Origin: a virus
Length of the DNA: 29,942 bases
Virus record (IMG/VR): IMGVR_UViG_3300035180_002547
Location: 1 to 29,942 of that record
Direction: 5' to 3' (one strand)
Below, in pieces: positions 3,867 to 21,200 of the stretch. Under the pieces are notes generated by a model. The model did not search any database, was not told the DNA's origin, and saw only the letters and a program-made list of their open reading frames with translations. The position numbers and the translations under genes were made by a program. Positions within the stretch are counted from its first letter, which is position 1, and every line of letters starts with the position of its first letter.

Positions 3867-5558
3867 ATGAAATTACGAGAACTACTTCAACAAATGGCGG
3901 AAATTCAAAAAAAGATAGGCTCATCTGAAGCCTATATTTGTGGTGGCACGCCCAGAGATCGATATTTAAAACATCTAGAAAATATTTCAGATCTCGATAT
4001 TACAACTGGTGATAAAACAGTTGGATTTTTATCTCAAGAATTGGGATCAGAATTATCTAAAAAATATAATGTAACTCGTCGTTCTCACGATGATGGACAT
4101 AGTTCTATTTATATTGGAAGTTTTAAAATGGATTTTTCTTCGAATTATAATGTTCCAAATATTATCAATATTCTTAAAACTAAAGCAATCACAAACCCTA
4201 CTGAAATGCAAAAAGAAATGTTTAGTAGAGATTTTACATGCAATGCATTATTGTTATCTTTAGATCTTAAAAACTTAATTGATCCAACTCATTATGGTTT
4301 CAATGATATTAAAGATAAAATGATTAGAACTTGTTTAGATCCACAAATTACTTTGACTTCTAATAAGAATAGAGTTATTAGAGCAATATATTTGGCATCT
4401 AAATTAGATTTTAATATTGACCCATCTATTATTGAGTTCGTTGGCAAAAACCCTCAAACGGTTAAGATTGCTAGTGATAAAGTATTATCAGAAAAATTAA
4501 ATGAAGCTTTTAATAGAGATGCTGATAAAGCTTCTTATTATATATCTAAAATGAATTTATGGAATCAAATTCCAATTACAGAAGTTGTTCAACCTTATTA
4601 TATGAAAGCGCAAAATGGTATGGTAAATAAAAAGGCTTATTTCCAGGGAGGAGGCGGGGTAAACGAACCAACTCCAAAAGAAAAAAAGTATAAATCGGAT
4701 CCAGCTATCGTTAATCAAGTCCGCTTTAAAGAGCCATTTTATCACAACTACGATATTTATGAAATTCCAGGATTCGAACACATTGGTCCAGGTGCCGGAT
4801 GGCACTCTCTACAAAATTATAAAAGCATTTCTGATTTTCTAGCCGCTCGCCGTGAACGTATGAAAAGTAAATATCGGGCCGATGACTCTTGGATTTTGGA
4901 TAGCGGAAAAAAAACCAAAGAAAATCCTGGAATAAAAGCCAGAGCAAATTTATTGTCCCAAATAATAAAAACTGCTAGAATGCCTGGTGGTTTGTTTCAC
5001 AAATTACATCAAAGATTTAAGGATCAAAACTGCGTTGACGAAAATGACGGACCAAATTTTGATTATGGTAAGGAATTTTATGCAAACATGGACAAATATA
5101 AAAGTGTAAAAGATTTTGAAGAGCACGCTGATAAAGGGCCGGTAGCTTTCTTTGCTGATGATAATGCTATAGATTTTCCAATAGATGAATATATTGATCC
5201 AGATATTTCTGCTACAGAACCAACTAATGTAGATGGTGGAAATCCAGCAGGAGAAGGTAATTTAATAGGAGGGTATTTAGATGAATATCTTCCAGAAAAT
5301 GATTTTGAAGGCAAAATGCCTACTAGCCTAGATTTTGGTCGAGATTATATAGAGGGAAATAGTGATGAAAAATCATCTCCAGTAGACTTAAAATCCATTG
5401 AAAATCTATTAAATAAGTACTTGTCTCATGGTTTATATGGGTTACCTGATGGTGTAGATTTGCCAGATGAAGATTTAGAAGAATCCAAAGATTTAAACTC
5501 AGATTATGGAACTAGAGGTCCAGATAGTTTAATTTATGAAGACAAATGGAATATCTAA
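3867..5558 (+). CDS. Class II CCA-adding/poly(A)-polymerase-like nucleotidyltransferase fused to a structural-looking tail
   Basis: A 563-residue protein. Residues 22-200 carry the class II nucleotidyltransferase signature: glycine turn and RD motif (YICGGTPRDRYL, 23-34), metal-binding pair D42 and D44 (ISDLDITT), a likely third carboxylate D89 (KMDF), the RDFTCNAL motif (121-128), DPTHYGFNDIKDK (139-151) and a basic RVIRAIYLASKL helix (169-180). In this family these residues add nucleotides to RNA 3' ends, as in tRNA CCA repair or polyadenylation; all appear intact. The usual RNA-binding C-terminal region is not obvious. Instead, residues 257-270 (AYFQGGGGVNEPTP) match a segment present twice in the protease/scaffold protein at 18261-21866, and residues 370-563 are acidic and low in complexity. 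An upstream ATG at 3863 is out of frame. Enzyme family is confident; role is unknown. Confidence 0.85.
   Translation: MKLRELLQQMAEIQKKIGSSEAYICGGTPRDRYLKHLENISDLDITTGDKTVGFLSQELGSELSKKYNVTRRSHDDGHSSIYIGSFKMDFSSNYNVPNIINILKTKAITNPTEMQKEMFSRDFTCNALLLSLDLKNLIDPTHYGFNDIKDKMIRTCLDPQITLTSNKNRVIRAIYLASKLDFNIDPSIIEFVGKNPQTVKIASDKVLSEKLNEAFNRDADKASYYISKMNLWNQIPITEVVQPYYMKAQNGMVNKKAYFQGGGGVNEPTPKEKKYKSDPAIVNQVRFKEPFYHNYDIYEIPGFEHIGPGAGWHSLQNYKSISDFLAARRERMKSKYRADDSWILDSGKKTKENPGIKARANLLSQIIKTARMPGGLFHKLHQRFKDQNCVDENDGPNFDYGKEFYANMDKYKSVKDFEEHADKGPVAFFADDNAIDFPIDEYIDPDISATEPTNVDGGNPAGEGNLIGGYLDEYLPENDFEGKMPTSLDFGRDYIEGNSDEKSSPVDLKSIENLLNKYLSHGLYGLPDGVDLPDEDLEESKDLNSDYGTRGPDSLIYEDKWNI
4635..4676 (+). repeat. 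Shared YFQGGGGVNEPTP segment (copy in nucleotidyltransferase fusion)
   Basis: Codes for AYFQGGGGVNEPTP, residues 257-270 of the nucleotidyltransferase fusion, followed by a lysine-rich KYKSDP stretch. Two related copies lie in the protein encoded at 18261-21866. The DNA here uses different codons from those copies (GGA GGA GGC GGG against GGT runs), so the similarity is held at protein level rather than by recent copying. Confidence 0.8.
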
Positions 5559-5607
5559 AACAGCGGATATTATTACATATATGCATACACACTCCAGAGG
5601 TACCTAA

Positions 5608-6552
5608 ATGTCATTACAGTCAACAGCACAAGAATTAATAGTTGTCGATCCTGCTATGGGTCTTTCAATGGATGACCCTGGTATGTCATTAGTTCCACTT
5701 GAAGTAGAAGATGTGCATTCTGATCATCCTGCTGTTATGGAACCAATCGCACATAATCACGAAGAATCTCCGTTAATGGAAGTTCACGATCATCCTGAAG
5801 AATTAGAAATTCATATGGATCTTCCAGGAGCCCCACCAGGAACACAAGATCCAGAACCAGTTCTCGAAGTTTCAGAACCTGAAGAAGATAAATCAAAAGC
5901 TATGGATGAAGATCCTGCTAAAACCAAGTCTAATGAAAAATGGGATTGGTCTAAGCGTGGTCCAAAAGGATTTATCGCTTGGGTTAAAGAACGTTGTGAT
6001 GATGTTCCAAAACATTCTGGTTATGATACTGCCGGTCTAGAAAGAGCCGTTGCTTATCTTGAAAGATTAGATAATGAAGTTTCCAAAGCAATGAGATTAG
6101 ATTTAGATGGCGAATTAGATGCTAATCAAATTGAAAAAGTCAGAGCTATTATCGATAATGGTATTGAAAGATTAAATGATCGTTTAGATAAAGTAAAAAC
6201 TAGTAAGAAAAAGACGCGTAAAAAGAAGTCAGAAGTTATTCACGAAGGTCTTGTGAAAGAGGCTCAAAAAATTACTGGAGTACAAGGTGTATTCGTAACT
6301 GTGCCATTATTGATTTCTAGAATTGCAAGAGTTTGTATTAATGGTATGGTGTCTGCTGGTCATGATATCGAAGATTTATATGCAAGACAAGTAAAATATT
6401 ACAAACTTAGTACTCGTGAGCAAGCAGAAGTTCAACAACTTTTGTCCGATATGGGTTATGCTGTTCGTCAAGATAGAGGCTTTATGCCAGATGAAGATTT
6501 TGATGTTTCTAGCAGTGACAACATGGATTGGGCTGCAAACTACAAAGGATAA
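5608..6552 (+). CDS. Hypothetical protein with acidic/His-rich N-terminus
   Basis: A 314-residue protein with AGAGGT a few bases before its ATG. Residues 1-100 are low in complexity and rich in Glu, Asp, Pro and His (for example HNHEESPLMEVHDHPEELEI), probably disordered. Residues 108-190 begin with a Trp-rich motif (KWDWSKRGPKGFIAWVKERC) and continue as helices. Around 200-212 is a basic cluster (KTSKKKTRKKK) that could bind nucleic acid. Residues 215-300 look like a compact helical domain. A 49-bp gap precedes it, so a new transcript could start here, but no clear promoter is seen. The two following genes lead into terL, so a packaging or assembly role is possible. No family is recognised. 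Confidence 0.85.
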   Translation: MSLQSTAQELIVVDPAMGLSMDDPGMSLVPLEVEDVHSDHPAVMEPIAHNHEESPLMEVHDHPEELEIHMDLPGAPPGTQDPEPVLEVSEPEEDKSKAMDEDPAKTKSNEKWDWSKRGPKGFIAWVKERCDDVPKHSGYDTAGLERAVAYLERLDNEVSKAMRLDLDGELDANQIEKVRAIIDNGIERLNDRLDKVKTSKKKTRKKKSEVIHEGLVKEAQKITGVQGVFVTVPLLISRIARVCINGMVSAGHDIEDLYARQVKYYKLSTREQAEVQQLLSDMGYAVRQDRGFMPDEDFDVSSSDNMDWAANYKG

Positions 6553-6554
6553 TC

Positions 6555-7205
6555 ATGTCTCGATACGTTAGACACTCAGCTATTATTTCTAGACAATCTG
6601 ATGAATCAATTGGTGATGATCATTGGTTAAAACAATTCCAAAAAAGTTTGCAAAAGGGAGCTGTACAACCAAGACAGCAAGAATCTTTGTTCGACCAAAT
6701 TAATTCTATCATGAACGGAAGTGCAACTTCTAAATATCCATCAGTTGAAGCTGCTGTTCAAGATATGAAGGAAAGAAGTGGCTTAACAGCTTATCTTAAT
6801 AAGGTTAAAGTTTCTCAAGAAGAAGCCTCTACTACTAAGACAGCCAGTGATAATCAAGAAGCAATTGATAAAAAAGTTGATATGACACCAATTGTAGTTA
6901 AGAAACATCCACCAGTCTTAAAAACATTAGAGAGATATATTAAAGATACTAATGGTAACTTACCAATCTCTGCTATAGTAGATAAAATTCGTTCTATTCA
7001 TCAAAATGATTGCTCTGATGCAAAAGATTGGGAAGATGATAAATTACTGATTATGATTAGTAAACTTAATCTAGTTGCTAAGAAAAATAATCCCGGTACA
7101 TTTCAAGATTATAACAATTTAGGCGCCAGAGATAGTGAATCTAATTCAGAAGTAGATCCTTCTAATACTGATGCATTTTTTGCTTTAGCTCCAGCTAAAA
7201 TTTGA
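6555..7205 (+). CDS. Hypothetical protein upstream of terminase
   Basis: The start is placed at 6555 (MSRYVRHSAIISRQSDESIG) rather than an in-frame ATG at 6528 because AAGGATAATC precedes 6555 at good spacing and the earlier start would lie inside the previous gene. The 216-residue product has a basic, Gln-rich N-terminus (MSRYVRHSAII), a central segment with SKYPSVEAAVQDMKERSGL, a Ser/Thr/Lys linker, and a helical C-terminal domain ending DPSNTDAFFALAPAKI. Its last 97 bases overlap the minus-strand endonuclease gene in antisense. Position directly before terL suggests a packaging or head-assembly role, but no known family is recognised. Confidence 0.85.
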   Translation: MSRYVRHSAIISRQSDESIGDDHWLKQFQKSLQKGAVQPRQQESLFDQINSIMNGSATSKYPSVEAAVQDMKERSGLTAYLNKVKVSQEEASTTKTASDNQEAIDKKVDMTPIVVKKHPPVLKTLERYIKDTNGNLPISAIVDKIRSIHQNDCSDAKDWEDDKLLIMISKLNLVAKKNNPGTFQDYNNLGARDSESNSEVDPSNTDAFFALAPAKI

Positions 7206-7843
7206 GCTTCTGTTTCAGCAATAAGTTCTTTTTTACAAAAATTGCTGCAATTATAACACATGATTTTTAATCCTAAGTTGTCTGGAAAATCATTTTTAAT
7301 AATCCAGCGATACAAGTGAATACCAGTATTTGATTTTTTATTTTCTATAGTTAATCTTTCAATCTTATCTTCACCGCACTCAACACATTGATTGCCATAG
7401 GCTTCTATCACTCTTTTTTTATCACGTAGAGCATATTTATCTTTATAAGTAATATTTTTGCTGCATTTACAATTGTAACATAATATTTGATAACCATCTT
7501 TTTGAATAGGATTGTTGTATAACCAATTATATATTTTATTAGATGTTTGTTTTACATCATTATTTTTACAATCAATTATTAGTTTATAATAATTATCTTC
7601 TCCACAAAATATACATGCATCTCCATAGGAATGAATAATCGCACTTTGCCTACTACGATATCGTGCCATTTGTTTTTTACTGTAATCTGAATTTTTACGA
7701 TATCGTTTTTTATCTTGCTTTTTACGACATATTTTACAAATGTAATGCTTTACTTTTTTGTCATATTTATTCCAATTATAGCTGGATAAATACTCTTTAC
7801 ATTTAAGACAATTTTTTAGACTAAGTTTTTTCTGTGAAGTCAC
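7109..7843 (-). CDS. Probable homing endonuclease with two degenerate HNH/zinc-ribbon repeats
   Basis: The only minus-strand gene in the window: 244 residues, apparently starting at a GTG (7841-7843), since an in-frame stop lies a few codons upstream and the first ATG comes only at residue 60. Residues 12-39 form a zinc ribbon (CLKC ... CKIC). Two tandem domains follow: C77/C80 with C122/C125, and C153/C156 with C196/C199. Each has the YG-x-x-C-x-x-CGE start and LCYNC or MCYNC end typical of a phage HNH nuclease group. In both, the usual LTIDH catalytic segment is altered (LIIDC at 88-92, LTIEN at 164-168), so activity may be reduced or lost. The last ~33 residues are antisense to the neighbouring gene. 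It lies beside the intein-bearing terL, as free-standing homing endonucleases often do. Confidence 0.75.
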   Translation of the reverse strand: MTSQKKLSLKNCLKCKEYLSSYNWNKYDKKVKHYICKICRKKQDKKRYRKNSDYSKKQMARYRSRQSAIIHSYGDACIFCGEDNYYKLIIDCKNNDVKQTSNKIYNWLYNNPIQKDGYQILCYNCKCSKNITYKDKYALRDKKRVIEAYGNQCVECGEDKIERLTIENKKSNTGIHLYRWIIKNDFPDNLGLKIMCYNCSNFCKKELIAETEAQILAGAKAKNASVLEGSTSELDSLSLAPKLL

Positions 7844-7869
7844 AGTAGTATATATATCTTCATTTCAAT

Positions 7870-10818
7870 ATGCCTGTACTAAATATTGAAGACAAAGATT
7901 TGTTTATGAAACTTAAAAAGCAACTGATGATGCTCGATCCAGTTAGCTTTTGTGAAAATCATTTAACATTAGATGGTAAGCCATTTAGGTTGAGTGGAAA
8001 CGGGTATAAACCGTTTGGAGAGATATACAGATATATTGGAATCAAAGCATTAGAGCCAGATTCTAAACCAGTAATTATTGTTAAAGGTCGTCAGGTTGGC
8101 GCCACAACTATGGCCAGTGCCCTAGAAATGTATTTTATGGGTTCTGGAATTTTTGGAATAGCTGATAAGCCACCAATTCGTGTTATTCATGCGTTTCCTC
8201 AATTGGAATTAGCTGCGGCCTATTCTAAAACCAAACTAAACCAAATAATATCATCTGCTATTCCAGTTCCAGCTGATCCTAATAATAAAGCTGCAAAACA
8301 AAAGTCTTGCATGCAAGTTTTATTAGATCAATCTACTGCAACAAATGATTCTTTACATTTTAAACAATTTACTGGCGGAAACCATTTATGGGTTGAATCA
8401 GTAGGATTAGATGGAGACCGAATCATGGGTCGTACTGCTGATATTTTATTTTTTGATGAATGTTTCCCGTCTAATCAAAAAATAGCAACTAATAAAGGAA
8501 AAAAAACAATTGGCAGTTTAGTTAAAAATCATTTAAATAATAAAGATAATCCATTAATTTTATCATTTAATGAAAACACACAGTCTTTTGAATATAAAAA
8601 AATTATTAATGCATGGGAACGTGAAAAAAAAGAATTAATAAGATTATTTTTATGTGGAAAAAAAATTGACTGTACGCCTAATCATAAATTTTTAACAGAA
8701 TTTGGCTGGCAAGAAGCTAAAAATATTAAGTCTGGTACATTAATAAAAACTTATCATGACACTGATAGGCATATAAGTTCGCTTAATAATGACCAATATC
8801 AAATAATATTAGGCTCATTTTTGGGAGACGGACATGTTAATAGTGAAGGGCAATCCAGATATAGATTAAAAGTTATTCATGGATCATCTCAAAAAGATTA
8901 TTGTAATTGGAAAGCTAATGCATTTAACTCTAATATTAAATATATTAAAGAAAATGGCTATGCAAAAAAAGAGGCATATAGTTTTCAAACTAAATTATTC
9001 GGATTAAATAAAAAATTTCCTAAAACAAAAAATGATTGTCCTCAATGGATATTAGATGATATTGATGCAAGGGGAATAGCTATTTGGTTTATGGATGATG
9101 GTAGTATTACAAGAAAATGGAATAGCGGCATGTCTGGAACTATTTCTACATGTTCTTTTAATGAAGATAGTCAGAAAAGATTTGTTAAAAAATTCAAAGA
9201 TTTAAATATTGAATGTCATTATAAAAAATATGATGGACAATTTTATTTATTATTTAATAAAAATGGATTTAATAATTTATTTAAATTAATTGAGCCATAT
9301 ATGCATGAAAATTTATTGTATAAAACTCATATGAAAGAAAATAATTATAAATGGAATTTTATCCAAAATAAATTTGGATGGCTTATTTTGGATAAAATTG
9401 TTAATACAAATATATCTAAAAAAGTATATGATATTGAAATTGAAAATAATCATAATTTTATATTATCACCAAATACATATGGACATAATCTTGGAGGACC
9501 AATTGCTCATAATTGTCAAAAAACGACCAGCACAGCCATTGGTAACTCTTTGAAAGTTTTAACTACTGCTAAATATGGCAGACCATCAAAAGGTGTCCAA
9601 ATATATTTTGGAACACCAAGACGTAAAGGTTCTGATTTTCATAAAATGTGGCAGACATCATCTCAGCAATATTATTATTTGGGCTGTGAAAATTGTGAAA
9701 AACATTTCCCATTATATACTCCCGGCTCAGATGATTGGAAGAAAATTTGGGTCTATGGTAAAATCGTAAGATGCCCACATTGCACTCATGAGCAAGATAA
9801 GTTAGAAGCTGCTGAGCGTGGCAAATGGATTTCATTTAAAGATCCAAACGATCCAGATTGTCAAATGATTGGTTTTCATATCAATCAATTATACATGCCA
9901 ATGTTTACTAGAGAAGATATTGATAATGAAATTCCTGGAAAGCATCCAATCAATACTGAACGTGTATTCATGAATGAAGTTTTAGGGGAATTTTTTCAAG
10001 GAGATTCTAGCCCAATTACTCCAGAAGAAATAAAAGAAAAATGCGCAGATGTTGGAAGAAAATTTAGTGGACGCATAACTCCAGTTATTAACTCAGCGGA
10101 CCCTCAAATGGTAATATTGGGAATCGATTATGGTGCTCGTGCCGATTTAGAACAATTAGCCAATCCAGAAAAAATTAGAGCATCAGGACAATCCTATAGT
10201 ACTGCTGTAGTTTTATCTGTTAAAGGCCCCAATTTATTGAGCATTGAATTTGCAACAAAGTTTAAAAGAAATGATATGGAAAGTAAAAAGGGAATTATAG
10301 ATCAAATAATGAGGCAATATAGTGTTCAATTAGCGGTTGGAGATATTGGTTACTCTAATGATTTTTCGTCTCTATTACATCAAATTTACGGAGATAAGTA
10401 TTTAGTATCTCGTGCTCATAATAAAGTAAATGGACACGTAAAATTTACCACAGACGCGTTTCCTAAGGAAATAGTTTTTGAAAGAGATTTTTATATTGGT
10501 GAATTATATGAACAAATGAAAAATGGAATGATTAGATTCCCATATGGTGATTATGAAAAAGTAGCCTGGCTAATTGATCATTGTTGCAGTATGGAAATAA
10601 AACCATCAACATCTAGAATTGGCGGAGATCCTGAAATACATTATGTAAAAGGTGGCACTCCAAACGACGGTTTTATGGCTTTACTTAATGCATATATTGC
10701 TTACAAATTTCTCATTACTAGAGGATTTACCAATAATAACCCTTTACTTCAGCAATCTAATTTTTCTAATCATAATAAACCTCTAGTATTAAGTGGCTTT
10801 ATTCCTCGTAAATTCTGA
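7870..10818 (+). CDS. terL: Terminase large subunit (GpA-like), interrupted by an intein
   Basis: The ATPase and nuclease that packages genomic DNA into the prohead. The precursor is 982 residues; removing the intein (198-548) leaves 631. Walker A is GRQVGATT (73-80) and Walker B is ADILFFDE (190-197), with the intein placed directly after the catalytic Glu. After the junction come IYFGTPRRKGSDFH, a zinc ribbon C606/C609/C635/C638 and ERGKWIS, which resemble the GpA family of lambda-like terminases. The C-terminal RNase-H-like nuclease has D753 (LGIDYG), D825 (GDIGYSND) and D933 (TPNDGF), the expected metal-binding acids. No clear Shine-Dalgarno precedes the ATG, unlike most neighbours. The portal gene follows after 77 bp. 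Identification is very confident. Confidence 0.96.
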   Translation: MPVLNIEDKDLFMKLKKQLMMLDPVSFCENHLTLDGKPFRLSGNGYKPFGEIYRYIGIKALEPDSKPVIIVKGRQVGATTMASALEMYFMGSGIFGIADKPPIRVIHAFPQLELAAAYSKTKLNQIISSAIPVPADPNNKAAKQKSCMQVLLDQSTATNDSLHFKQFTGGNHLWVESVGLDGDRIMGRTADILFFDECFPSNQKIATNKGKKTIGSLVKNHLNNKDNPLILSFNENTQSFEYKKIINAWEREKKELIRLFLCGKKIDCTPNHKFLTEFGWQEAKNIKSGTLIKTYHDTDRHISSLNNDQYQIILGSFLGDGHVNSEGQSRYRLKVIHGSSQKDYCNWKANAFNSNIKYIKENGYAKKEAYSFQTKLFGLNKKFPKTKNDCPQWILDDIDARGIAIWFMDDGSITRKWNSGMSGTISTCSFNEDSQKRFVKKFKDLNIECHYKKYDGQFYLLFNKNGFNNLFKLIEPYMHENLLYKTHMKENNYKWNFIQNKFGWLILDKIVNTNISKKVYDIEIENNHNFILSPNTYGHNLGGPIAHNCQKTTSTAIGNSLKVLTTAKYGRPSKGVQIYFGTPRRKGSDFHKMWQTSSQQYYYLGCENCEKHFPLYTPGSDDWKKIWVYGKIVRCPHCTHEQDKLEAAERGKWISFKDPNDPDCQMIGFHINQLYMPMFTREDIDNEIPGKHPINTERVFMNEVLGEFFQGDSSPITPEEIKEKCADVGRKFSGRITPVINSADPQMVILGIDYGARADLEQLANPEKIRASGQSYSTAVVLSVKGPNLLSIEFATKFKRNDMESKKGIIDQIMRQYSVQLAVGDIGYSNDFSSLLHQIYGDKYLVSRAHNKVNGHVKFTTDAFPKEIVFERDFYIGELYEQMKNGMIRFPYGDYEKVAWLIDHCCSMEIKPSTSRIGGDPEIHYVKGGTPNDGFMALLNAYIAYKFLITRGFTNNNPLLQQSNFSNHNKPLVLSGFIPRKF
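8461..9513 (+). mobile_element. Intein with LAGLIDADG homing endonuclease, inserted at TerL Walker B
   Basis: A 351-residue in-frame insertion from Cys198 (CFPSNQKIATNKG) to Asn548 (GPIAHN), with Cys549 as the +1 extein residue. Splicing block B is CTPNHKFLTEFGWQEAKNI; block F is KKVYDIEIENNHNFI; block G ends in His-Asn before Cys. The two dodecapeptide-like endonuclease motifs are LGSFLGDGHVN (314-324) and IAIWFMDDGSIT (403-414), each with its acidic residue, so both self-splicing and homing could be active. Excision would rejoin FFDE to CQKTTS. Insertion in a conserved ATPase motif is typical for inteins, since imprecise loss would destroy the host protein. The insert is strongly A- and Lys/Asn-rich. 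Confidence 0.95.
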
Positions 10819-10895
10819 AAATCTCTAACTACTTCAATGCTTTGATATATTATTACTTGAGTATAGTAGAGTAGATGGAAATAAATTGAGGAAAT

Positions 10896-12758
10896 ATGGC
10901 TATTAATAAAGCTCAAAAACTATGGGTAGGACCCTCTAACTCGGATCAGTATCTAGGATCTAAATCTTCTGTACCACAAGTTAGTTCACTAATGTCACGA
11001 ACTGTATCAGATATTAGGCGGCAAGGTATTGCTGGTGAAGTCGAACAAGGTCTATATAGAGATGGATCTGGCCCAACTGTAAAAGAAGATGGATTTACGC
11101 TAAATGGCAGAGTAGTTTCATCTGTAGGTACTCATAAATATGCTCAAGTTGTAAGTAATTCTGGTGGAAATTTCCGTGGTGGTACAGGAGATACAGTAAA
11201 GCAAACTCCTGAAGTTTACTCTCCACTATGGTTAAATTCTAATCTTAATTTACCACGTGATAGAGCAACCATCAATGCTTGGTGCCGTAGTTTTTATGCT
11301 TTAAATCCATTTGTTCATAATGCAGTTAATCTACACAGCACGTATCCTATTAGCAAATTAAACATTAAATGTCCAAACAAAGACATCGAGAAATTCTTTA
11401 ATGATATGATTGAAGAAATTGATCTTATGAATATTTGCGTGCAAATTGCGCAAGAATATTGGTTATTGGGAGAATCTTTTGTTTATGCAGAATTGGATGA
11501 AAGTCGCGGAAAATGGAGCAGATTACTAATCCAGAATCCAGATTATATGATTGTAAAGCGTACGGTAGTTGCTAATGAACCAATCATTATGTTACGTCCT
11601 GATGAAAATTTAAAGAAAATTGTTTTTTCAAATAGAACTAATGATATCGAACAGCGTAAACAGCTTAATAATCATATTATAGATTCAGTAAAGCGTGGAG
11701 AAAATATACCATTAGATAATTTCCATGTTTCACATTTAGCACGCAGAATTAGTCCTTATGAAATTAGAGGAACTGGTCTTCCAGTATGTATTTTTAGACA
11801 ATTAATGTTATTTGATAAATTACGTGAATCTAAATATGCTCAAGCAGATAATATGATTAACCCATTAACATTGGTTAAAATTGGAACTGATGGTCCAGAC
11901 GGATTACATCCTTCAGTTGCAGATTTAGATGCATTCAGAAACGTTTTTGAAGAAGCTCAATATGATAAAGATTTCAAAATCTTTACTCATGCTGGAGTAG
12001 CAGTAGAACGTGTTGGTTATGGACAAGGAATTTATGATATTTCTGGAGATATTACTCAAATAATTAAAGAAATATATGTTGGATTACAAGTACCACCAGT
12101 ATTAATGGATGGTGGAGCTGATACTACATATGCTAATGGTGGTGTTGCTCTTGATGTATTAAGACAACGTTACATGCAATTTAGAAATATGATGTCTCAA
12201 TGGTTAAAAAGAAAAATCTTTGCTCCCATTTCCAAAATTCAAGGTTTTTATGATTATTCTGGTGGAGAAAAACAATTAATTGTTCCAGATGTAGATTGGA
12301 ACCATATGTCTCTATTTGATGCTGGAGATTATATTAATGGATTAGTAACTTTAACTCAAGGTGAAGATGCAGCTAAAAGAGCTTCATTACATACATTATA
12401 TAGATCTTTAGGATTGGAATTTGAAGATGAAATTCGTAAAATGAGAAAAGAGGCAATTCAATTAGCTATTAATAAAAAAGAGAAAGTGGCTCTTGATGCT
12501 ATGGATTTGAACTCTTTGCGTGCACTAGATGAAGAAGATGAAATTCCAGAAATGGAAACTAAACCAGGTGAAACTGGTGCTATGCCGCCTCTTCCAGGAG
12601 AAAGCCCTGGCGGTAGTGCCCCACCAAGCCCAGGAGGATTACCTGGCCTAGACCTTGGTGGATTGCCTCCAATCCCACCAGGACCTTCAGGTGGCACACC
12701 TCCATCCCCTCCACCACCTTCTGGTAGCCCTCTACCTAGTGGTGGACCTCTAGCTTAA
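10896..12758 (+). CDS. Portal protein
   Basis: A 620-residue protein preceded by TTGAGGAAAT, a good ribosome binding site. The portal forms the dodecameric ring at one head vertex through which DNA passes. Support comes from position directly after terL, size, and motifs of the phage portal family: the WCRSFYALNPFVHNAVNLHS region around 128-147, the stem/wing part with YWLLGESFVYAEL and LLIQNPDYMIVKR, and a C-terminal core with GIYDISGDITQIIKEIYVGL, then QVPPVLMDGG and LRQRYMQFRNMMSQWLKRKI. The last 70 residues (about 551-620) are a Pro/Gly/Ser tail, unusual for a portal core and probably disordered. The gene has its own upstream gap of 77 bp. Confident. Confidence 0.93.
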   Translation: MAINKAQKLWVGPSNSDQYLGSKSSVPQVSSLMSRTVSDIRRQGIAGEVEQGLYRDGSGPTVKEDGFTLNGRVVSSVGTHKYAQVVSNSGGNFRGGTGDTVKQTPEVYSPLWLNSNLNLPRDRATINAWCRSFYALNPFVHNAVNLHSTYPISKLNIKCPNKDIEKFFNDMIEEIDLMNICVQIAQEYWLLGESFVYAELDESRGKWSRLLIQNPDYMIVKRTVVANEPIIMLRPDENLKKIVFSNRTNDIEQRKQLNNHIIDSVKRGENIPLDNFHVSHLARRISPYEIRGTGLPVCIFRQLMLFDKLRESKYAQADNMINPLTLVKIGTDGPDGLHPSVADLDAFRNVFEEAQYDKDFKIFTHAGVAVERVGYGQGIYDISGDITQIIKEIYVGLQVPPVLMDGGADTTYANGGVALDVLRQRYMQFRNMMSQWLKRKIFAPISKIQGFYDYSGGEKQLIVPDVDWNHMSLFDAGDYINGLVTLTQGEDAAKRASLHTLYRSLGLEFEDEIRKMRKEAIQLAINKKEKVALDAMDLNSLRALDEEDEIPEMETKPGETGAMPPLPGESPGGSAPPSPGGLPGLDLGGLPPIPPGPSGGTPPSPPPPSGSPLPSGGPLA

Positions 12759-12781
12759 GGATAAATACCCAATAACTTATG

Positions 12782-12793: not shown

Positions 12794-12829
12794 TTTGTTT
12801 ACTGATTTTATATACATAAAGGGTTTATC

Positions 12830-14209
12830 ATGCAGAAAACTGCTCAAAAAAGAAGCATTCTCAATAAGTTAAGAGAGATGACAAATGTCAGTGGCCAAGC
12901 TGCTGAAAAATTCTTCAATCCACAGTTTAAGGCTGTAATGGAAAGTTTGCGAGCTAAGGACGATCAAATACGTTCTTTAGTGGCAGGTGCCCCCATTGGT
13001 GATGGAGATCCAGGTTCGGATCCTGTTGCATTGAAAGATCTTTTAAAGTCTGCTAAGTCTAATCTAAATAGACGAGAGTATATGGTTGCAGTTGCTGAAT
13101 TAGGAAGATTTCATAAAAGATTTTCCGATATCCATAGGGAGCTTGATAAACTAAAATTTGATATTGATGCTGTTCATCATCAATTTTTATTTGGTACTGA
13201 AGATGAGCCAATTTTAAATGACGAACAAAAAAAACATCTTCATGATTTGAAAAGTAGATTTGCTCGTACTCAAAGAATGGAGCTAATTAAAGAAGCCGGT
13301 ATTATGGATTTTTTCTATAATATTGGAACGAGACGAGGCCGTGCCCTTTCTGCTTGGGAAAAGCGTTATCCAAAAGAAACTGCTCGTCTAAAAAAAGATA
13401 CAACAACAATGTTGGTAAAATCTGAAGCTGCTTTATCGCAAATTTTATCTACATTGAAAGAAATGGCATCTGCTCGTTCTGTTAGAAATCCAGAACAATA
13501 TACTAAGTTCGCAGAAAAAATTACCAAGAGTTATCAATCATACGATGGTTCTTTTAAGGAATATTACAATACTAACATCAAGGGATGGTTAGATAAAGTA
13601 GAATTAGTTGCTCCAACTGAACCAATTAGTGAAAAAGAGTCTGATGAAATTGCTACTCAAAAAATTCCAGTAGGAGACGTTCCTTCTACTGAAAAAGACA
13701 ATTTCAACATACCAATGTTATTTGGTCCTGATAAAAGCACTGAAGTATCAAGAGTACCTTCACAAGTAGATACTGATAGAGAATCTATGCCTCCTACTAT
13801 GGATGCTCCTTCTTCTAAAGAACTTCCATATGCAGCTACAATGCCATCTCCTGGAATGCAGGTTAATACTCCAAGAATACCACCAGCAGCATCAGTTCCA
13901 ACTATACCATCCCCACCTCCAGCAATGTCTGGACCGATGAGTACGCAGCCATCTTCTGCTGCACCTAGTACTATTCCTTCTCCACCGCCAGCAATGTCAG
14001 AGCCAGGACAATTAAAAAGTGATCAATTAGCAAAGGAATTTGGATGGAACACTGCTCATACAAAATTCCTTTCATCTTTAGAATCATTATCTAATGAAAG
14101 TCCTTTTTTATTAGCCTCTTATATTGCTAAATATGCTCGTAGCATTCAATCTTATGATACTGCTACTGCAATTAAACTTCTAAAAATTGCTAAGAATATT
14201 AGGGGTTAA
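12830..14209 (+). CDS. Hypothetical virion-like protein, coiled coil plus Pro-rich linker
   Basis: A 459-residue protein with AAAGGGTTTATC before its ATG. Residues 1-270 are mainly helical with conserved-looking segments such as GTRRGRALSAWEKRYPKE and repeated amphipathic helices; residues 290-390 are a Pro/Ser/Thr linker with an internal repeat (PTIPSPPPAMSGP and STIPSPPPAMSEP). The C-terminal ~60 residues form a second helical domain (FGWNTAHTKFLSSLESL, then LLASYIAKYARS). It is followed after 2 bases by the lytic transglycosylase gene, so the two products may act together, for example as neck, tail or internal virion proteins. No family is recognised. Confidence 0.85.
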   Translation: MQKTAQKRSILNKLREMTNVSGQAAEKFFNPQFKAVMESLRAKDDQIRSLVAGAPIGDGDPGSDPVALKDLLKSAKSNLNRREYMVAVAELGRFHKRFSDIHRELDKLKFDIDAVHHQFLFGTEDEPILNDEQKKHLHDLKSRFARTQRMELIKEAGIMDFFYNIGTRRGRALSAWEKRYPKETARLKKDTTTMLVKSEAALSQILSTLKEMASARSVRNPEQYTKFAEKITKSYQSYDGSFKEYYNTNIKGWLDKVELVAPTEPISEKESDEIATQKIPVGDVPSTEKDNFNIPMLFGPDKSTEVSRVPSQVDTDRESMPPTMDAPSSKELPYAATMPSPGMQVNTPRIPPAASVPTIPSPPPAMSGPMSTQPSSAAPSTIPSPPPAMSEPGQLKSDQLAKEFGWNTAHTKFLSSLESLSNESPFLLASYIAKYARSIQSYDTATAIKLLKIAKNIRG

Positions 14210-14211
14210 TC

Positions 14212-15384
14212 ATGCCTAATCTGGGACCGAATTTTTACCAAAAGTTAGTGCGAATCTCTTCTGAAGTAGGTATGAAACCAGAAGATTTGATTGCTGTTAT
14301 GGTTTCAGAATCTGGAATGAATCCAGCTGCTGTTGAAAAACAGTATAAAGGTTCTGGACTAATTGGATTTATGCCAGATACTTTAAAGGGTTTAGGATTT
14401 AAAGGAACCTGGGAAGATTTCATTAAATTATCTGGTGAGCAACAATTAGATTATGTTGAAGCTTTTATTAAAAACAAAGGGCAAAAATTTAATTCAGCTC
14501 CACAATATTATGTTGCTAATTTTTGGCCCGCAGCTTTAAAACTTCCAGGAATAAAAGCGGAAGATCCTAACACAGCATTCATTGAATCCAATCCACAAGT
14601 TGTAACAGAACCTAAAACTGGTAGGAAATGGAGCAAGAAATATTATGATGTTGGAATTAAAATTGATCCTACTTTTGAACATAGCGCATATAAAGCAAAT
14701 CCTTTATTTGACAAAAATAAAAGGGGAGCCATTACATATGGTGATATGATTGAAAGAGTAAATGATATTAAAAAACAATCATCATATAAAAATATAATAG
14801 CATCATTAACCAAATCTACTGGATATCAGCCTGGTAAGGAAAATACTATGGTTGTACACAAAGATGATCTTATAAAAAGATATATGAATAAATATAAAGA
14901 TCAAGATCAAGGAATTGATTCTTATCAACAAGTTGGTAATCAATCACAATTAAATAATACTTTGAATAAGTATTTGCAAGAAATTGCAGCATCTGATAAG
15001 TCAAATAAAAAGTTATACAAAAAGTTTTTACCACTTAATCATTTAGTAATTAATGTTACAGCATCTGAATTTGTAGATGCTGTAGAATTTTCTCGTATTT
15101 TATGTGCCGCATTAGATGAAGAATTGATGGCAGAAGCATTTACACATACTAATGGCAATATAATAGATGTTGAATGTTCAATTTCAGGCCCAGAGCATGA
15201 ATGTTTTAAAACAGTAAAACAATTAACTGAATCATTATCTGAAGTGTTTAAGAATTCAACTATTAAAATTGGTGGAATTGATGTAAAAACTAAATTCTTT
15301 ATGAATAAAAAGTCATCTTATCAGCAAATGGATGCTAAAACTGCTAACGCTCAACACAGGAAGTTCCTGATTAAATTTATCTAA
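14212..15384 (+). CDS. Lytic-transglycosylase-like virion protein
   Basis: A 390-residue protein with AGGGGTTAATC before its ATG. Residues 10-115 resemble the lysozyme-like SLT fold: the catalytic Glu is probably E33 in MVSESGMNPAAV, followed by GSGLIGFMPDT (48-57) and QYYVANFWPAALKLPGI (98-114). Such enzymes cleave the glycan strands of peptidoglycan; in a virion operon this usually means local wall opening during genome entry rather than lysis. No signal peptide or membrane segment is visible, which fits a virion-carried enzyme. Residues 115-270 are a charged linker region, and 276-390 form a separate alpha/beta-looking domain (HLVINVTASEFVDAVEFS). Family assignment is good; exact role is inferred. 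Confidence 0.87.
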   Translation: MPNLGPNFYQKLVRISSEVGMKPEDLIAVMVSESGMNPAAVEKQYKGSGLIGFMPDTLKGLGFKGTWEDFIKLSGEQQLDYVEAFIKNKGQKFNSAPQYYVANFWPAALKLPGIKAEDPNTAFIESNPQVVTEPKTGRKWSKKYYDVGIKIDPTFEHSAYKANPLFDKNKRGAITYGDMIERVNDIKKQSSYKNIIASLTKSTGYQPGKENTMVVHKDDLIKRYMNKYKDQDQGIDSYQQVGNQSQLNNTLNKYLQEIAASDKSNKKLYKKFLPLNHLVINVTASEFVDAVEFSRILCAALDEELMAEAFTHTNGNIIDVECSISGPEHECFKTVKQLTESLSEVFKNSTIKIGGIDVKTKFFMNKKSSYQQMDAKTANAQHRKFLIKFI

Positions 15385-15392
15385 AGGAAAAA

Positions 15393-15821
15393 ATGGTAAC
15401 CGAGAAATTTGTTTTAGATGTCATACAGGACTCCAATAAAGATAGAACGAAAACTTTTGCAGAATTTATTGCAACAGTTTTCAAAGATAAATTCGTTGAA
15501 ATATATCTAGGTGATGCGTATGAAGATGTTAGTTTAGAGCAAACTTCAACTGCATATCCTGCTGTTTTTTGTGGCAAAGTAATTGCTGCATATAGAGAGT
15601 GCTTAATTATTAATTCTGTTTATGTAAATTCTCGCGCTAAAACAATTCAGATAGGAAATCTTATGTTTATTAGCGAAAGAGCGATTAGAGGACTTAATGA
15701 AATCGATGGTAATGGTATTATTGAAGATATGTTTATGAGAAGTAAAGAATCTTTAGAGATTAAAAAAAACTTTGTTGATAATTCCGAAAATACTTCAGTC
15801 CAATATACTCGAAAAAAATAA
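15393..15821 (+). CDS. Hypothetical 142-aa protein
   Basis: Starts 8 bases after the transglycosylase stop with AAAGGAAAAA as ribosome binding site. The protein looks compact, with alternating hydrophobic strands (VFCGKVIAAYRECLIINSVY) and a helical, charged end. It has no recognisable motif, signal peptide or membrane segment. Tight linkage to the transglycosylase and later virion-like genes suggests a small head-tail connector, completion or tail protein, but this is inference from position and size only. Confidence 0.8.
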   Translation: MVTEKFVLDVIQDSNKDRTKTFAEFIATVFKDKFVEIYLGDAYEDVSLEQTSTAYPAVFCGKVIAAYRECLIINSVYVNSRAKTIQIGNLMFISERAIRGLNEIDGNGIIEDMFMRSKESLEIKKNFVDNSENTSVQYTRKK

Positions 15822-15827
15822 TGAATC

Positions 15828-16577
15828 ATGTCAGATACAAACCACATACTAAAATTAGCTCACAACTATGAAAAAAGTTGTTTAGAAAGTTTGGATAAAC
15901 TTGCTCGCATTAAAAAATTGCCGAGCGGTAAGTATCGTGTATTATCTGAAAATGGAAAAAATTTAGGAACTTCTGAAACTAAAGAAGAAGCTGAAAAAAG
16001 ATTAAAGCAAGTAGAATATTTCAAGCATAATGATAAAAATAGTTCTGAAGATGAACAAGAAGAAAAAGTAATAGATTTAATGAAAGCTACTGATTTTTCT
16101 TATTCTGCTATTATGCGAGAAATGAGACAAAAAGCAACTAAAGAGCAAGTAAGAGAATTTTTAATTTTATTCAAGAGAGAGTTTGATAAAGCAACAAAAG
16201 ATAAACTTCAAAAACCAGAAAAATTAGCTTTGCAAAACTCTCTTATCAAATTTAATAAGAGGCATAAAATCAAGGTAAAGAAAAAACTTGTTAAAAATGC
16301 AGCTATTAGTGAATTAGGTGATGCTAATCAAGTTGGACAATATTTAGCAAATATTGTTAGATTTACTATTAACAGAATTCCATTAGAAAAAAGACAATCA
16401 GTAATTAGCAATTTGAAAAATAAATTTTATTCTTTTAATGCTGATGAAATAGCTCAGAAACAATTACCACCTACTTCTAGTATAGGTCAATCTATTACTT
16501 TCGTTAAACATGTATTATTTAATCACGATCCAATATATATTCGTGAAGTACTTAATAGTTTAGTGAGTCATTTATAA
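15828..16577 (+). CDS. Hypothetical lysine-rich protein with a small N-terminal beta-type module
   Basis: A 249-residue protein that starts 6 bases after the previous stop, with only a weak ribosome binding site, so translation may be coupled. Residues 25-67 (KKLPSGKYRVLSENGKNLG, then TKEEAEKRLKQVEYFKH) match a short strand-rich module that in phage and bacterial proteins commonly reads as 'K-x-G-K-Y-x-V-L-S-x-x-G-K-x-L-G ... EEAExRLxQxExFK'; its function is not known to me. Residues 85-249 are helical and basic. The stop TAA shares one base with the next ATG. Unknown role. Confidence 0.8.
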   Translation: MSDTNHILKLAHNYEKSCLESLDKLARIKKLPSGKYRVLSENGKNLGTSETKEEAEKRLKQVEYFKHNDKNSSEDEQEEKVIDLMKATDFSYSAIMREMRQKATKEQVREFLILFKREFDKATKDKLQKPEKLALQNSLIKFNKRHKIKVKKKLVKNAAISELGDANQVGQYLANIVRFTINRIPLEKRQSVISNLKNKFYSFNADEIAQKQLPPTSSIGQSITFVKHVLFNHDPIYIREVLNSLVSHL

Positions 16578-17344
16578 TGATACAAAGATTTAGAAAAGTA
16601 ACTAATGGACTTTATAGAGGTAGTGCTCCAACACCTCAAGATGTTGTTATGTTAAAAAACAATCTTGGAATAAACAAGATAGTTAGTTTAGATGAGCGAG
16701 CTGGTTTAAGAATTGAAAGAACTGCTAAATTATTAGATATTAAACAAGTTATATTGCCAATACATTTTCATGATGTTAAAAAATCATTACTTAATATTCT
16801 AAGTCATAATCTAAAAGAACTTTTTTTAGAGGGCGGGCCTACTTTTATACATTGTGAGGCCGGTAAAGATAGAACTGGTTTAGCGGTAGCTTTAGTGCAA
16901 TGTAAATATCTTGGTAAAAATCCAGAAGACGCAATAGAAGAAGCCAAATCTTTAGGTTTTGGTTTGGGAATTGATCATAAATCAATTACTTTATTTGAAA
17001 AACTAATAATAGGGTGTAAACCTGCTAAAGATGAAAATAATGCTGATATAGTTTCAAACGAAAGAGAATATATTGGAGATAATCGAGATTCATTTTTAGA
17101 TGAAGGTCACCAGGGTTCTTTTGCACCATATTTAAGTGTTACAAAGCAAAATCCCATGGATGCAGTATATAATTTTGTTATGGATCAATCTCCTACTAGA
17201 GAAAATTATCAAAGTTACAAGTCAATAAAAGAGCATAATCCTCAAGAAGAGGATACGGTTCCTCAAGTTGGTGTATATGATAATGATGCGGGTGGAAGAG
17301 GTTTTGGCCCAGCAGAAAATAATGGTGGATTTATTTATGATTAA
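16577..17344 (+). CDS. Tyrosine/dual-specificity phosphatase-like enzyme
   Basis: A 255-residue protein. The phosphatase P-loop is HCEAGKDRTG (92-101) with nucleophile C93 and R99. The N-terminus (VTNGLYRGSAPTPQDVVMLK) and NKIVSLDERAGLRIE match the start of bacterial dual-specificity or protein-tyrosine-phosphatase-type enzymes, and a possible general-acid loop lies around 60-67 (LPIHFHDV). The family removes phosphate from phosphotyrosine/serine or from phosphoinositides and nucleotide-type substrates; the substrate here is unknown. The fold ends near residue 155; the last 100 residues are a polar tail ending GGRGFGPAENNGGFIYD, atypical of the family. It lies within a virion-type operon, overlapping its neighbours by 1 and 8 bases. 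Confidence 0.88.
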   Translation: MIQRFRKVTNGLYRGSAPTPQDVVMLKNNLGINKIVSLDERAGLRIERTAKLLDIKQVILPIHFHDVKKSLLNILSHNLKELFLEGGPTFIHCEAGKDRTGLAVALVQCKYLGKNPEDAIEEAKSLGFGLGIDHKSITLFEKLIIGCKPAKDENNADIVSNEREYIGDNRDSFLDEGHQGSFAPYLSVTKQNPMDAVYNFVMDQSPTRENYQSYKSIKEHNPQEEDTVPQVGVYDNDAGGRGFGPAENNGGFIYD

Positions 17345-17990
17345 GAAAGCATATGCTGTTCAAATGACTTATGACGTATCTGATGAGGAAAAGAATCAGG
17401 CCGAAAAAGCCTTATTATTTTTTGTTCATACTGATAAGATTTTGACAATGGCATCTGATCATTTAAATATAATGAAAACTCCTTTCAAAGATAGCCCAGA
17501 AATGAGTCCTAATGAAGTTATGAAAGCTCGTGCAGCTATTAGAAGATTTAGAGATAAAGTTGTTGATAATTTCAATGATTTTAAACGCTCTGCTTTTAAT
17601 TGTGTTAATATAATGCAGATATTTTCAACTGACACCCAAACTTTAAAGCTAATGAAATCATTTATTTCATCTATAGATGAACTAGAAGTAAAGGTTAATA
17701 GATTTGTTGATATTTTTTCTGATTTAGAATCAAAATCTTTCGCTCAAGATGTAGTTAAATTAATTGAAAATATTCAGGCACAATGCGATGATATCCATGA
17801 AATAATTGATGATAGAATAAAAACTCATATACAAACTAATATATTGGCAACTAGTTGGGTAGATAACGTTAGCACTGATTTACAGATGCAGATTGAACGA
17901 AAAACCCCACTAATTATAGATCTTTTTAATAAAAGACAAGACGAGCTTAATGAAGCTTTGAAGGAGAGAACTTTACAACCAGGTAACTAA
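17337..17990 (+). CDS. Hypothetical helical protein
   Basis: The start is placed at 17337 (MIKKAYAVQMTYDVSDEEKN) because a GGTGG lies at suitable distance and the 8-base overlap with the phosphatase gene is normal here; the open frame extends back to 17268, but that part would encode an odd Met-rich stretch inside the upstream gene. The 217-residue product is almost entirely helical and charged, with no recognised motif, signal or membrane segment. It closes the operon: a 111-bp gap follows, with a possible promoter. A virion or chaperone-like role is only a guess from context. Confidence 0.82.
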   Translation: MIKKAYAVQMTYDVSDEEKNQAEKALLFFVHTDKILTMASDHLNIMKTPFKDSPEMSPNEVMKARAAIRRFRDKVVDNFNDFKRSAFNCVNIMQIFSTDTQTLKLMKSFISSIDELEVKVNRFVDIFSDLESKSFAQDVVKLIENIQAQCDDIHEIIDDRIKTHIQTNILATSWVDNVSTDLQMQIERKTPLIIDLFNKRQDELNEALKERTLQPGN

Positions 17991-18059
17991 ATTAGGTAAT
18001 TATGATGGTAATATTCAGATATATGATTGAAATTACTGTCTGCAATGGCAATAATACAT

Positions 18060-18071
18060 TATAATTTAGTA
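18060..18071 (+). promoter_or_regulatory. Recurrent TATAATTTAGTA element, possible late promoter
   Basis: Second exact copy of the 12-mer found at 12782, here 30 bp before the ATG of the 51-aa gene and in the 111-bp gap between two gene clusters. Its place at the start of the protease/scaffold cluster would suit a late promoter. Start of transcription is not known. Confidence 0.35.
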
Positions 18072-18101
18072 ACTATTGTAATTCTTCTCATTGGAGAATA
18101 A

Positions 18102-18257
18102 ATGTTTATAAAACACGGTGATGGAAAAATATTATCAGTTGTTGAGACTGAAGAGATGACTGAAGAGCAGAAGAAAACTGCTAGTGATCTTGCTAAGAGA
18201 ACAGTTAAAACAGCCATTGATACTGATACTTCTTCACAAAAGAAGTCAGAGGAATAA
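18102..18257 (+). CDS. Small 51-aa hypothetical protein
   Basis: A short frame with a good ribosome binding site (TTGGAGAATAA before ATG) that ends 3 bases before the protease/scaffold gene. The product begins MFIKHGDGKILSVVETEEMT, a short strand-type N-terminus, then becomes Glu/Lys/Thr-rich and ends KKSEE. The gene fills the space between the possible promoter at 18060 and the protease gene and has the phage's typical spacing, so it is probably real. The function is unknown; a small capsid-assembly protein is possible. Confidence 0.7.
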   Translation: MFIKHGDGKILSVVETEEMTEEQKKTASDLAKRTVKTAIDTDTSSQKKSEE

Positions 18258-18260
18258 TTC

Positions 18261-21200
18261 ATGACATTTATCAAACTAGGTGAAACACAAGAAATCAAAT
18301 TAGAGAGTATGGAATCTTGTCTTCCTTCTGTTAGTCCAGAAATTTTAGATAACTTTCGTAAGTTCGCAGCAAATTTGAAAAAGATTGCCCCTAAAGCGGA
18401 AGATTTTCTTTATTTTTCTGCTGTTATGATGCATGCAGCTGAAGCTGCCGGAATTAATGATGACGGCACTCCAAAACTTACTTTACGTGGAGAAAATGTT
18501 CAAGTAGGTTGGGATAAAAGAGGCGGAACCTGGCGCTGGACAACCAATGACCCCGGAATTAAACCATATAAGAATTCTAATGGAGATATTTTTCCAGAAG
18601 AAGAATTAGTAAAAGCTTATAAGAAGTGGGTCGGAAAACCTCTTTGCATTGATCATAAATCAAGTTCAGTAGATCATGTAAGAGGTTTTATAGTTGATAC
18701 TTATTATGATCGTAATCTAAAAAGAGTAATTGCATTATGTGCTTTAGATAAAGCTGGATATCCTCAGCTTGCAAGACAAGTTGCTACAGGAGTTTCTAAC
18801 TGTGTGTCCATGGGTACCGCTGTTGGTAAAGCTATCTGCACTGAAGAAGGTTGTCATCGTGTGGCTCGTACAGAAACTGATTTCTGTGACCACATGAAAC
18901 GTAAGACATGCTACGGTGAAATTAACGTTGATTTAAACCCACTCGAATTATCTATTGTTGTAAATGGTGCTGATCCAAAAGCAAATATTAAACACATTAT
19001 TGCTGCTGCTAATACATTAAATACTTATGTTGAAAATAAACAAAAAGAATTAAACAAATTAGCAGATTTATCTTTTACAGCAACACTTACAGTTACTGAC
19101 CCTCAAGGTAAAGAGGGCGTCGGCAACACACAATTTACAATTAACGCAACTGATTTAGAAAAATTCAAGTCAGACGTTGATGACGCTTTTCAGAAATTAA
19201 GTGAGATTAATAACTCTGCTAAAATTTCTGAAAAAGATACTAATCATTTGGCATCAGATCAATTGGTGGATACTCCACCTGCTGATTCTGGATTGGCACC
19301 CCCACATGCAAGATATGCATCTGTTGAAGTAGGGGCAGACTCCATAGCTGAGCTTCGAGATGTTACAAAATCTATCGAAACTAAGCTGGCCTTAATGAAG
19401 CAAAGCTTGGACAAGTTAGCAAATACTTCTACAAACACACAAGAGGAAAATATGTCAGATTCAAATATCAAACAAGGTTATTACCAAGGTGCAGGTGGCG
19501 TTAATGAGCCTACTCCAGGTCAAGCAAAGTATCCTAAAGATCCTCTTCAAGAGCATCTTCGTGAAAAAGAGGATAAGCACATGAATGGTCAATCACCATT
19601 TCCAGGTGTTGGTCCAGTAGATGGTATGCATCCATCTCCAGATTCTGCGGAACAATCTAATGAATTAGAGCGTAAAAAAATGCTTGCCCGAGCTGAATCT
19701 GAAGAGAGAGCACAAAGACGCCAAGCAATTGTTAATCTTGCTAAAGCAGCTCTTGAAAATAAGACAGCTTATTTCCAAGGTGGTGGTGGTGTTAATGAAC
19801 CCGCCAAGCCAGGTACTCAAAAGTATCCAGTTGATAAATTAGAATATGTTCTTCGTGAAAAAGAGGATAAGCACATGAATGGTCAAAAGCCATTTCCAGG
19901 TGTTGGCGCAGTTGATGGACTTCATCCATCTCCAAGCTCATCAGATACTTCTGATGAATTAAAGCGTAAAGAAATGTTACGTAGAGCATCTGCTCTTAGT
20001 GCTAAGTTCGCTTATGCAACTAATGAAGATGGTACGCGTAATTTTGGAGATTGCGCTTGGGAAGTTTATCGTGGCGATAAGTTAATTCTAGCAGCATCTG
20101 TTGCAGATTTGGCTGGTGGTCAAGTCGGTAAACTATATAAAGATATTGCTACTAAAGAATTTGGAGCAAACTTACTTGAAAAAGTAAAAGCCCACGGTGT
20201 TGATAAAGTTCGTTCACTTGTAAAGAGTGCTCAAGCTGCTCCACCACCAGATGCAGGCGCCCCATCTCCAGTAGATTCTTCTGCCCAACCTCCACAAGCA
20301 GATTCTTCTGCTCCAGTTGGTAATCCAGCAGTTGAAGATACTGGTAAATCAGGTGATCCAAAAGAAGCCTTCGTTGAAATGTCAGAGAAAGTTAGAGATT
20401 TAGGCTCAGACCTAGTAGAAGCTGCAAGAGCTTTAACTGGTGAACAAGCTGAAATGGGCGAGATGGAAGGCGCCCCTGTCGGTGCTCCAGCTCCAGAAAT
20501 GGGCGCAGCTGCTTCCTTTAGTACTAACACTCTTAATAGCTTAAGAAAACAACTTAATGGTGCATTAACTGATGCAATCAAAGAAGCAGTAGCTAATTTG
20601 AATGATCATGCACAAGAGCTTGATATGATTGCCGGTCTTTATGATAAGGGTGCAGTAACAAGTGGAAATCAAGAGTTTGTTGGAAATATTGCTAGTGACG
20701 CACTCAATGAAGCTAAGTCTGCCGTTGCAGATGGATTCAAATTGATGACCGCTTTTGTTAAGTATGCCCGTGGTACTAATGCAATCGTTAAGCGTGCAGC
20801 AATTGAAGCAGAACTTGAGGCATTAGCTGAGGGAGAAACTATGACAAGCGAACAAGAAGCTAACAATGGCGATGACTTGATGGCCATGATCTCTGACACC
20901 AACTCTGATTTGGATGATGTCAGAAGCTTAATGGCAGATGATAATGACCATGCTGGAGCAGAACCACACAGTGAGCTACTTGAAATGCTTAGTGAAGAAG
21001 ATGGATTACCAGCTGATGACGCAAATGAAGTTGATGTTGCGTTGAAGCCAGGACAAGAACTACCAAAGGGTCTTCCACAAGATGCACATGTATCTGTTGC
21101 AGGATTTGATACTAAGGCAGAGCGTGCTACCATGAGAGCTAAATTAGCTGCTGATGCATTGGGCAAGCAAGAAGATGGAGAAATCCAAGATATGTCTCAT

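Follow-up and report, generated by a model that had tools for sequence, protein, structure and literature searches.

A short tag shared by a putative scaffold and a second head-module protein in giant phages related to Bacillus phage G: a candidate docking peptide of the prohead core

The C/Nu3 locus of phage lambda is a nested protease/scaffold gene. In Mu and PaMx73, an N-terminal protease is likewise followed by an in-frame C-terminal scaffold with its own internal Shine-Dalgarno (SD) sequence and start codon (PMC4378225). In T4, a short N-terminal sequence, the capsid targeting sequence (CTS), directs the internal proteins and Alt to the scaffolding core (PMC3012670, PMC5694885). Two diverged head proteins of the giant phage SPN3US, gp53 and gp54, carry the same N-terminal sequence, which has been likened to the T4 CTS (PMC5694885). 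The recruitment of proteins into giant-phage heads is poorly known. Here we describe a short segment, or tag, encoded on IMG/VR record IMGVR_UViG_3300035180_002547; the window analysed is the whole 29,942-base fragment. The tag stands twice in a protease/scaffold protein and once in a second protein, P2, which in the window is fused to a nucleotidyltransferase.

The tag has a consensus of about 25 residues, K-x-[AGS]-Y-[FY]-Q-G-(GGGVN or TE)-E-P-[TSAK]-P-x(3-4)-K-Y-x-x-[DE]. The initial annotation of the window had reported a segment at 4635-4676 with two further copies at 19476 and 19767, and all three are present. The copy at 4635-4676, AYFQGGGGVNEPTP, lies in the open reading frame (ORF) of the nucleotidyltransferase fusion, 3867-5558, and ORF 18261-21866 holds the two others, YYQGAGGVNEPTP (Y at 19479) and YFQGGGGVNEPAKP (Y at 19770). 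A 63-residue query from the first copy matched the other two sites with E = 3.6e-8 and 8.6e-5, far above chance, and a tag profile gave E values as low as 5e-24 in relatives. The carriers are otherwise unrelated proteins and the protein sequence is kept while the codons differ, both as first described; synonymous differences occur at many positions (TTC CAG GGA GGA GGC GGG GTA AAC GAA CCA vs TAC CAA GGT GCA GGT GGC GTT AAT GAG CCT). The weak similarity that had been seen further downstream (KYxxDP ... R-KE ... PG) did not hold up. When the ~55 residues after 'KY' were compared profile to profile, the two scaffold copies matched each other at 1e-33, whereas P2 against scaffold gave a probability of <1% and E of 0.16-0.33, on which a downstream homology of ~50 residues between P2 and scaffold was rejected. 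The tagged unit of the scaffold, ~97 residues long, occurs twice in tandem. YFQG resembles the tobacco etch virus (TEV) protease site ENLYFQ/G; the ENL part is absent and the likeness was taken as coincidence.

The tag is confined to two proteins of one giant-phage group related to Bacillus phage G. When IMG/VR was scanned with a DNA pattern, at least 118 stretches matched. The non-redundant carriers sorted into two protein families, with two short ORF pieces (L204 and L120) left unclustered; the first of these pieces was later read as a P2 fragment. In 20 large records (198-480 kb), profile search found two copies in the protease/scaffold ORF, at most one in P2, and no third carrier at E<=1. 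P2 lies ~13-15 kb upstream of the protease/scaffold ORF in most of the 20 (19 kb in G011, 29 kb in G009). Another 34 records gave clear copies again only in the scaffold ORF and P2, so that the profile search proposed in the initial annotation returned two gene families in 54 records; two weak extra matches among the 34 (E 0.009 in a 19-residue frame and E 0.055 in a 224-residue ORF) were not counted. Phage G, Rctr197k and Myrna carry no copy. No tag was found in the major capsid protein (MCP) in the relatives' records searched, and the two-copy region had no BLAST match in 50,697 phage and 72,556 plasmid records. Nor is the segment spread over many unrelated non-phage proteins: the one match among 84,980 bacterial and archaeal genomes was a 383-kb contig whose head-gene order is the same and which bears two tags, so that it is itself phage DNA that was assigned to a Chitinophagales genome bin. 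We found no description of the tag in literature searched with general words, most subscription journals lying outside the coverage.

The 1201-residue product of ORF 18261-21866 consists of a prohead protease and a scaffold-like C-terminal part. Residues 34-250 form a head maturation protease in which H132 and S183 are invariant among 37 aligned homologues. In two relatives (L152 and L155) the protease part is ~380 residues longer and has intein-like sequence. The initial annotation had not noticed an internal start codon at 19452, directly ahead of copy 1. In 39/39 phages a Met codon with a strong SD stands directly before this copy. A duplex with the anti-SD of <= -5 kcal/mol can form at this site in all 39, compared with 88 of 653 other in-frame ATGs of the same ORFs (the test took the best Met within 24 codons, usually just one). 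Additionally, Glu-Glu pairs over the SD site are coded GAG GAA in 52/52 cases vs 85/596 elsewhere in the same ORFs, counts that come from related sequences, so that the P value overstates the case. Where the overlying residues differ (E-G-K-M, E-D-T-T-M, R-E-T-T-M), a purine-rich GAGG or AGGG stays. Because a conserved SD and an in-frame ATG precede copy 1, a nested scaffold probably begins at 19452 with the tag near its N-terminus.

The C-terminal part belongs to no known family, and its profile matches phage G gp21 (E 1.8e-5; pairwise 4e-4) at the same relative position. In phage G the protease gp19 and gp21 are separate genes, gp21 downstream of gp19, and this arrangement alone supports the idea that the short product is made and acts as a scaffold. 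The predicted structure of the protease/scaffold protein is of low confidence (mean predicted local distance difference test score, pLDDT, of 51) with the tags unstructured, and a structure search gave no meaningful solved relative of the scaffold (one match, E 0.07).

The nucleotidyltransferase gene is immediately upstream of P2 in 39/39 phages, commonly with an overlap of a few bases. The first reading of the window had also missed that most relatives encode the enzyme part by itself, in a gene next to P2. There the separate P2 ORF starts M-x(2-6)-K-x-[AG]-YFQGGGGVNEPTP, often behind an AAAGGA-type SD, and P2 starts with the tag in most phages whose P2 carries it. An enzyme/P2 fusion with the tag at the joint is found in the window and four relatives, which form one clade (support 91/96), and a second in L389. 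In L358 and L383 a tagless P2, reduced to ~55 residues, is fused to the enzyme. Parsimony counts three changes; on this reconstruction the 'nucleotidyltransferase fusion' is a derived state that arose about three times.

The two halves of the fusion differ in character. The enzyme motifs GG..RD, DxD and RDFTxN are kept wherever aligned (37-38/39), RxxR is kept in 39/39, and the nucleotidyltransferase domain is predicted confidently (pLDDT mostly 85-97). Order ends near residue 250, and the tag and P2 beyond it are predicted to be mostly disordered. The tag and the next ~20 residues are the best-kept stretch of P2, with a mean pairwise identity of 0.74-0.76 that falls to ~0.4. The tag, predicted to be disordered, resembles a short linear motif. 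By our reading, P2 is tagged in 28/39 phages, including L372 and L375, where the tag has diverged to a TADP form. In L355 (G004:C1:246300-262000) an in-frame TAA splits P2 into a 107-residue tagged piece and the rest; a broken gene, a sequencing error or a frameshift is possible.

There are two types of tag, GGGGVNEP and the shorter TEEP. When the types were scored by eye, with L384 omitted as intermediate, scaffold copy 1 and P2 had the same type in 24/27 scorable phages with different codons (Fisher 3e-4). This agreement is suggestive of co-change of the tag type in the two proteins.

A second pattern, [LIVM]xKxA, points to P2 as a head protein. This pattern was noticed first and tested afterwards, and eight patterns were tried in that test. 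It occurs 37 times in the window proteins vs 12.7+-3.3 expected, most strongly in 18261-21866. Independent stretches agree: two relatives show enrichment around their head genes (z 2.7-5.7) with little or none in the other stretches (z -0.7 to 2.0), and for phage G z is 4.9 in head genes vs 1.6 in adjoining genes. At the core of the head-gene stretches z is 5-6, compared with about 0-2 elsewhere. The enrichment is about three-fold in head-module proteins of the group and phage G, and other proteins are near background. The scaffolds hold 199 sites vs 54 expected and the 39 P2 bodies 27 vs 7.3, while the adjacent nucleotidyltransferase domains hold 8 vs 10.2. The simplest reading is that [LIVM]xKxA is a recognition motif of the prohead protease. 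As the motif is enriched in P2 and not in the nucleotidyltransferase, it would single out P2 as a head-type protein and leave the enzyme domain unmarked. The MCPs of the relatives have a conserved LVKYA in an N-terminal extension, and phage G is without it. In these relatives (L240-L251) the MCP is encoded ~12-13 kb downstream of the scaffold start and is about 56% identical to phage G gp27.

We propose a model for how the tag may be used. The tag may be a short linear motif for docking in the prohead core that was copied onto P2, a probable prohead protein; we hold this with middling confidence. Our reasons are that the tag is restricted to the scaffold and P2, that the internal start is conserved and the tag is N-terminal on P2 where this is a separate gene, that gp19 and gp21 are split in phage G, that the tag is conserved and disordered, that [LIVM]xKxA is enriched in head-gene stretches only, and that the tag types agree. 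The internal start at 19452 would yield a separate ~804-residue scaffold beside the long protease product. In the scaffold and in P2 the tag would bind the same partner, which could be the core itself, the shell interior or the portal, and through it P2 would be built into the prohead core together with the scaffold. In the window's clade, the joined nucleotidyltransferase would enter the core along with P2. The prohead protease would process the core proteins there, possibly at [LIVM]xKxA, and spare the enzyme domain. A bolder form of the model, in which the docking peptide from the scaffold's N-terminus acts as a transferable address tag and, on a partner protein, carries the nucleotidyltransferase into the capsid, is possible but doubtful. 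The initial annotation had proposed a tag for head targeting, or a site for protease cleavage or docking, that would let the enzyme enter the prohead and be set free. Targeting or docking fits the restriction to two proteins, the N-terminal site, the disorder and the head motif in P2; the tag, however, belongs to P2 and not to the enzyme.

Several findings weigh against docking. After control for relatedness, the match in tag type loses significance, as only 1-2 well-supported independent pairs are left, and in three phages the types disagree. P2 has no tag in 11/39 phages though the scaffold keeps it, which suggests that targeting of P2 is dispensable in places or is achieved via other contacts. 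Known head-targeting signals are N-terminal, but the fusions have the tag at an internal site. The 'scaffold' label itself comes only from where the C-terminal part lies, from its composition and from a short match to a phage G protein that is uncharacterised, and virion proteomics for these uncultured phages was not found.

The tag could instead be a site that the prohead protease recognises or cuts. A cut between K-x-[AGS] and Y would release the protease from the scaffold and divide the scaffold a second time at copy 2. In P2 it would shorten the N-terminus or, in the fusions, split the enzyme from P2. The positions suit such cuts: copy 1 follows the protease domain, and in the fusions the P2 tag marks the very junction of enzyme and P2. 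The conserved K-x-[AGS] ahead of the tag is the one hint of cleavage. K-x-[AGS] directly precedes nearly all tags (38/40 copy-1, 31/40 copy-2 and 26/27 P2 tags), and in 29/40 copy-1 tags the full [LIVM]xKx[AGS] is there, close to [LIVM]xKxA, but the hydrophobic residue is found in only 3/40 copy-2 and 12/27 P2 tags. The ~20 conserved residues beyond the putative cut are more than known head proteases need. Moreover, dozens of LxKxA sites in head proteins have no tag, and the MCP has its conserved LVKYA but no tag. We consider cleavage as the role of the tag rather unlikely. It is also unlikely, in our view, that P2 is a second core or scaffold protein and not cargo, with the tag a duplicated self-assembly motif and the enzyme a neighbour that sometimes fuses. 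The predicted disorder of P2 and its head-type [LIVM]xKxA site would suit such a protein, as would the two tags on the scaffold itself in nearly every phage, the single P2 tag in 28/39 and an enzyme that is mostly a separate gene. Yet about three independent fusions and adjacency in 39/39 suggest a joint function of P2 and enzyme, and tagless P2s persist, some of ~55 residues (L358, L383), which are better explained as a linker or partner of the enzyme. A copy made recently by recombination between two head-module genes, with no common function, is very improbable. The genes are 13-15 kb apart in one module and loss of the P2 copy is tolerated, but the codons differ within each phage, the residues persist even between phages that have diverged deeply, and the tag with the ~20 residues that follow is the best-conserved stretch of P2.

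Table 1. Positions in the window of the features discussed.
Feature	Position	Strand	Basis
Class II nucleotidyltransferase (CCA-adding-like) head/neck domain, residues 1-245	3867..4601	+	Pfam PolyA_pol 1.6e-11; PHROG tRNA nucleotidyltransferase 1.7e-12; Foldseek CCA enzymes 2.5e-12
P2 part of fusion: tag and mostly disordered body	4626..5558	+	stand-alone ORF in most relatives
Shared tag, P2 copy (KKAYFQGGGGVNEPTPKEKKYKSDP)	4629..4703	+	profile/alignment; pLDDT <50, disordered
IIKTA, [LIVM]xKxA site in P2 body, candidate prohead-protease site	4962..4976	+	motif enrichment in P2 bodies
Prohead protease domain	18261..19010	+	PHROG head maturation protease 6e-13; Bacillus phage G gp19 34% identity, 8e-28; invariant H132, S183
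Internal SD GAGGAA	19443..19448	+	Glu-Glu codon choice; anti-SD duplex energy
Putative separate scaffold, residues 398-1201 (~804 residues), starting MSDSNIKQGYYQGAGGVNEPTP	19452..21866	+	SD/ATG conservation; phage G gp21 match
Shared tag, scaffold copy 1 (KQGYYQGAGGVNEPTPGQAKYPKDP)	19470..19544	+	profile/alignment
Shared tag, scaffold copy 2 (KTAYFQGGGGVNEPAKPGTQKYPVDK)	19761..19838	+	second unit of ~97-residue tandem repeat

The window holds other genes in and around its head/packaging module. A large terminase (7870-10818) is interrupted by an intein with a LAGLIDADG endonuclease. Two ORFs were read from the sequence as follows: 24230-25000 in the head module is a GIY-YIG-like homing endonuclease, and the Cys-rich ORF at 7109-7843 on the minus strand, between head genes, is possibly an HNH-type endonuclease. 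The head module also includes a tyrosine/dual-specificity phosphatase-like protein (16577-17344), with a similar ORF in relative L203, and a lytic transglycosylase-like domain (14212-15384; SLT, E 2.5e-4, just under the Pfam cut-off).

For phage-G-like giants, this case names candidates for a scaffold and its start codon, a targeting peptide, a cargo or core protein and a protease motif. If the bolder form of the model is true, the virus may package a tRNA- or RNA-modifying enzyme and deliver it with its genome. If the tag works in trans, it could be used to load very large capsids with proteins.

Among cultured phages the closest relative is Bacillus phage G, with 33% identity in the portal, 34% in the protease and ~56% in the MCP (the last from the window's relatives), and its gp21 matches the scaffold C-terminus. 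It differs in that gp19 and gp21 are two separate genes and the tag is nowhere in its genome. Like the genes of lambda (C/Nu3) and Mu, the long ORF has an N-terminal head protease domain and an in-frame internal start with a conserved ribosome-binding site from which a scaffold would be made, but the giant-phage form has ~1200 residues, and its internal product would start with a repeated tag that is also on another protein. The enzyme shares the catalytic motifs and the head/neck fold of Class II CCA-adding tRNA nucleotidyltransferases. Unlike them, it has only ~245 residues with no counterpart of the tRNA-holding body and tail domains, and its gene stands in the head/packaging module by P2 or fused to it. 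With the T4 CTS, the tag has in common that a short N-terminal sequence is found on otherwise unrelated head proteins, if P2 is the head protein that it appears to be; in the nucleotidyltransferase fusions it is internal. The tag is also longer (~25 residues), starts the putative scaffold itself, is repeated inside it and is a candidate for removal by the protease. This likeness would be one of function; the sequences were not compared and we do not claim membership of one family. Finally, gp53 and gp54 of SPN3US are homologous to each other (34% identity overall), whereas the carriers of the tag described here are unrelated proteins, one of which is the putative scaffold.

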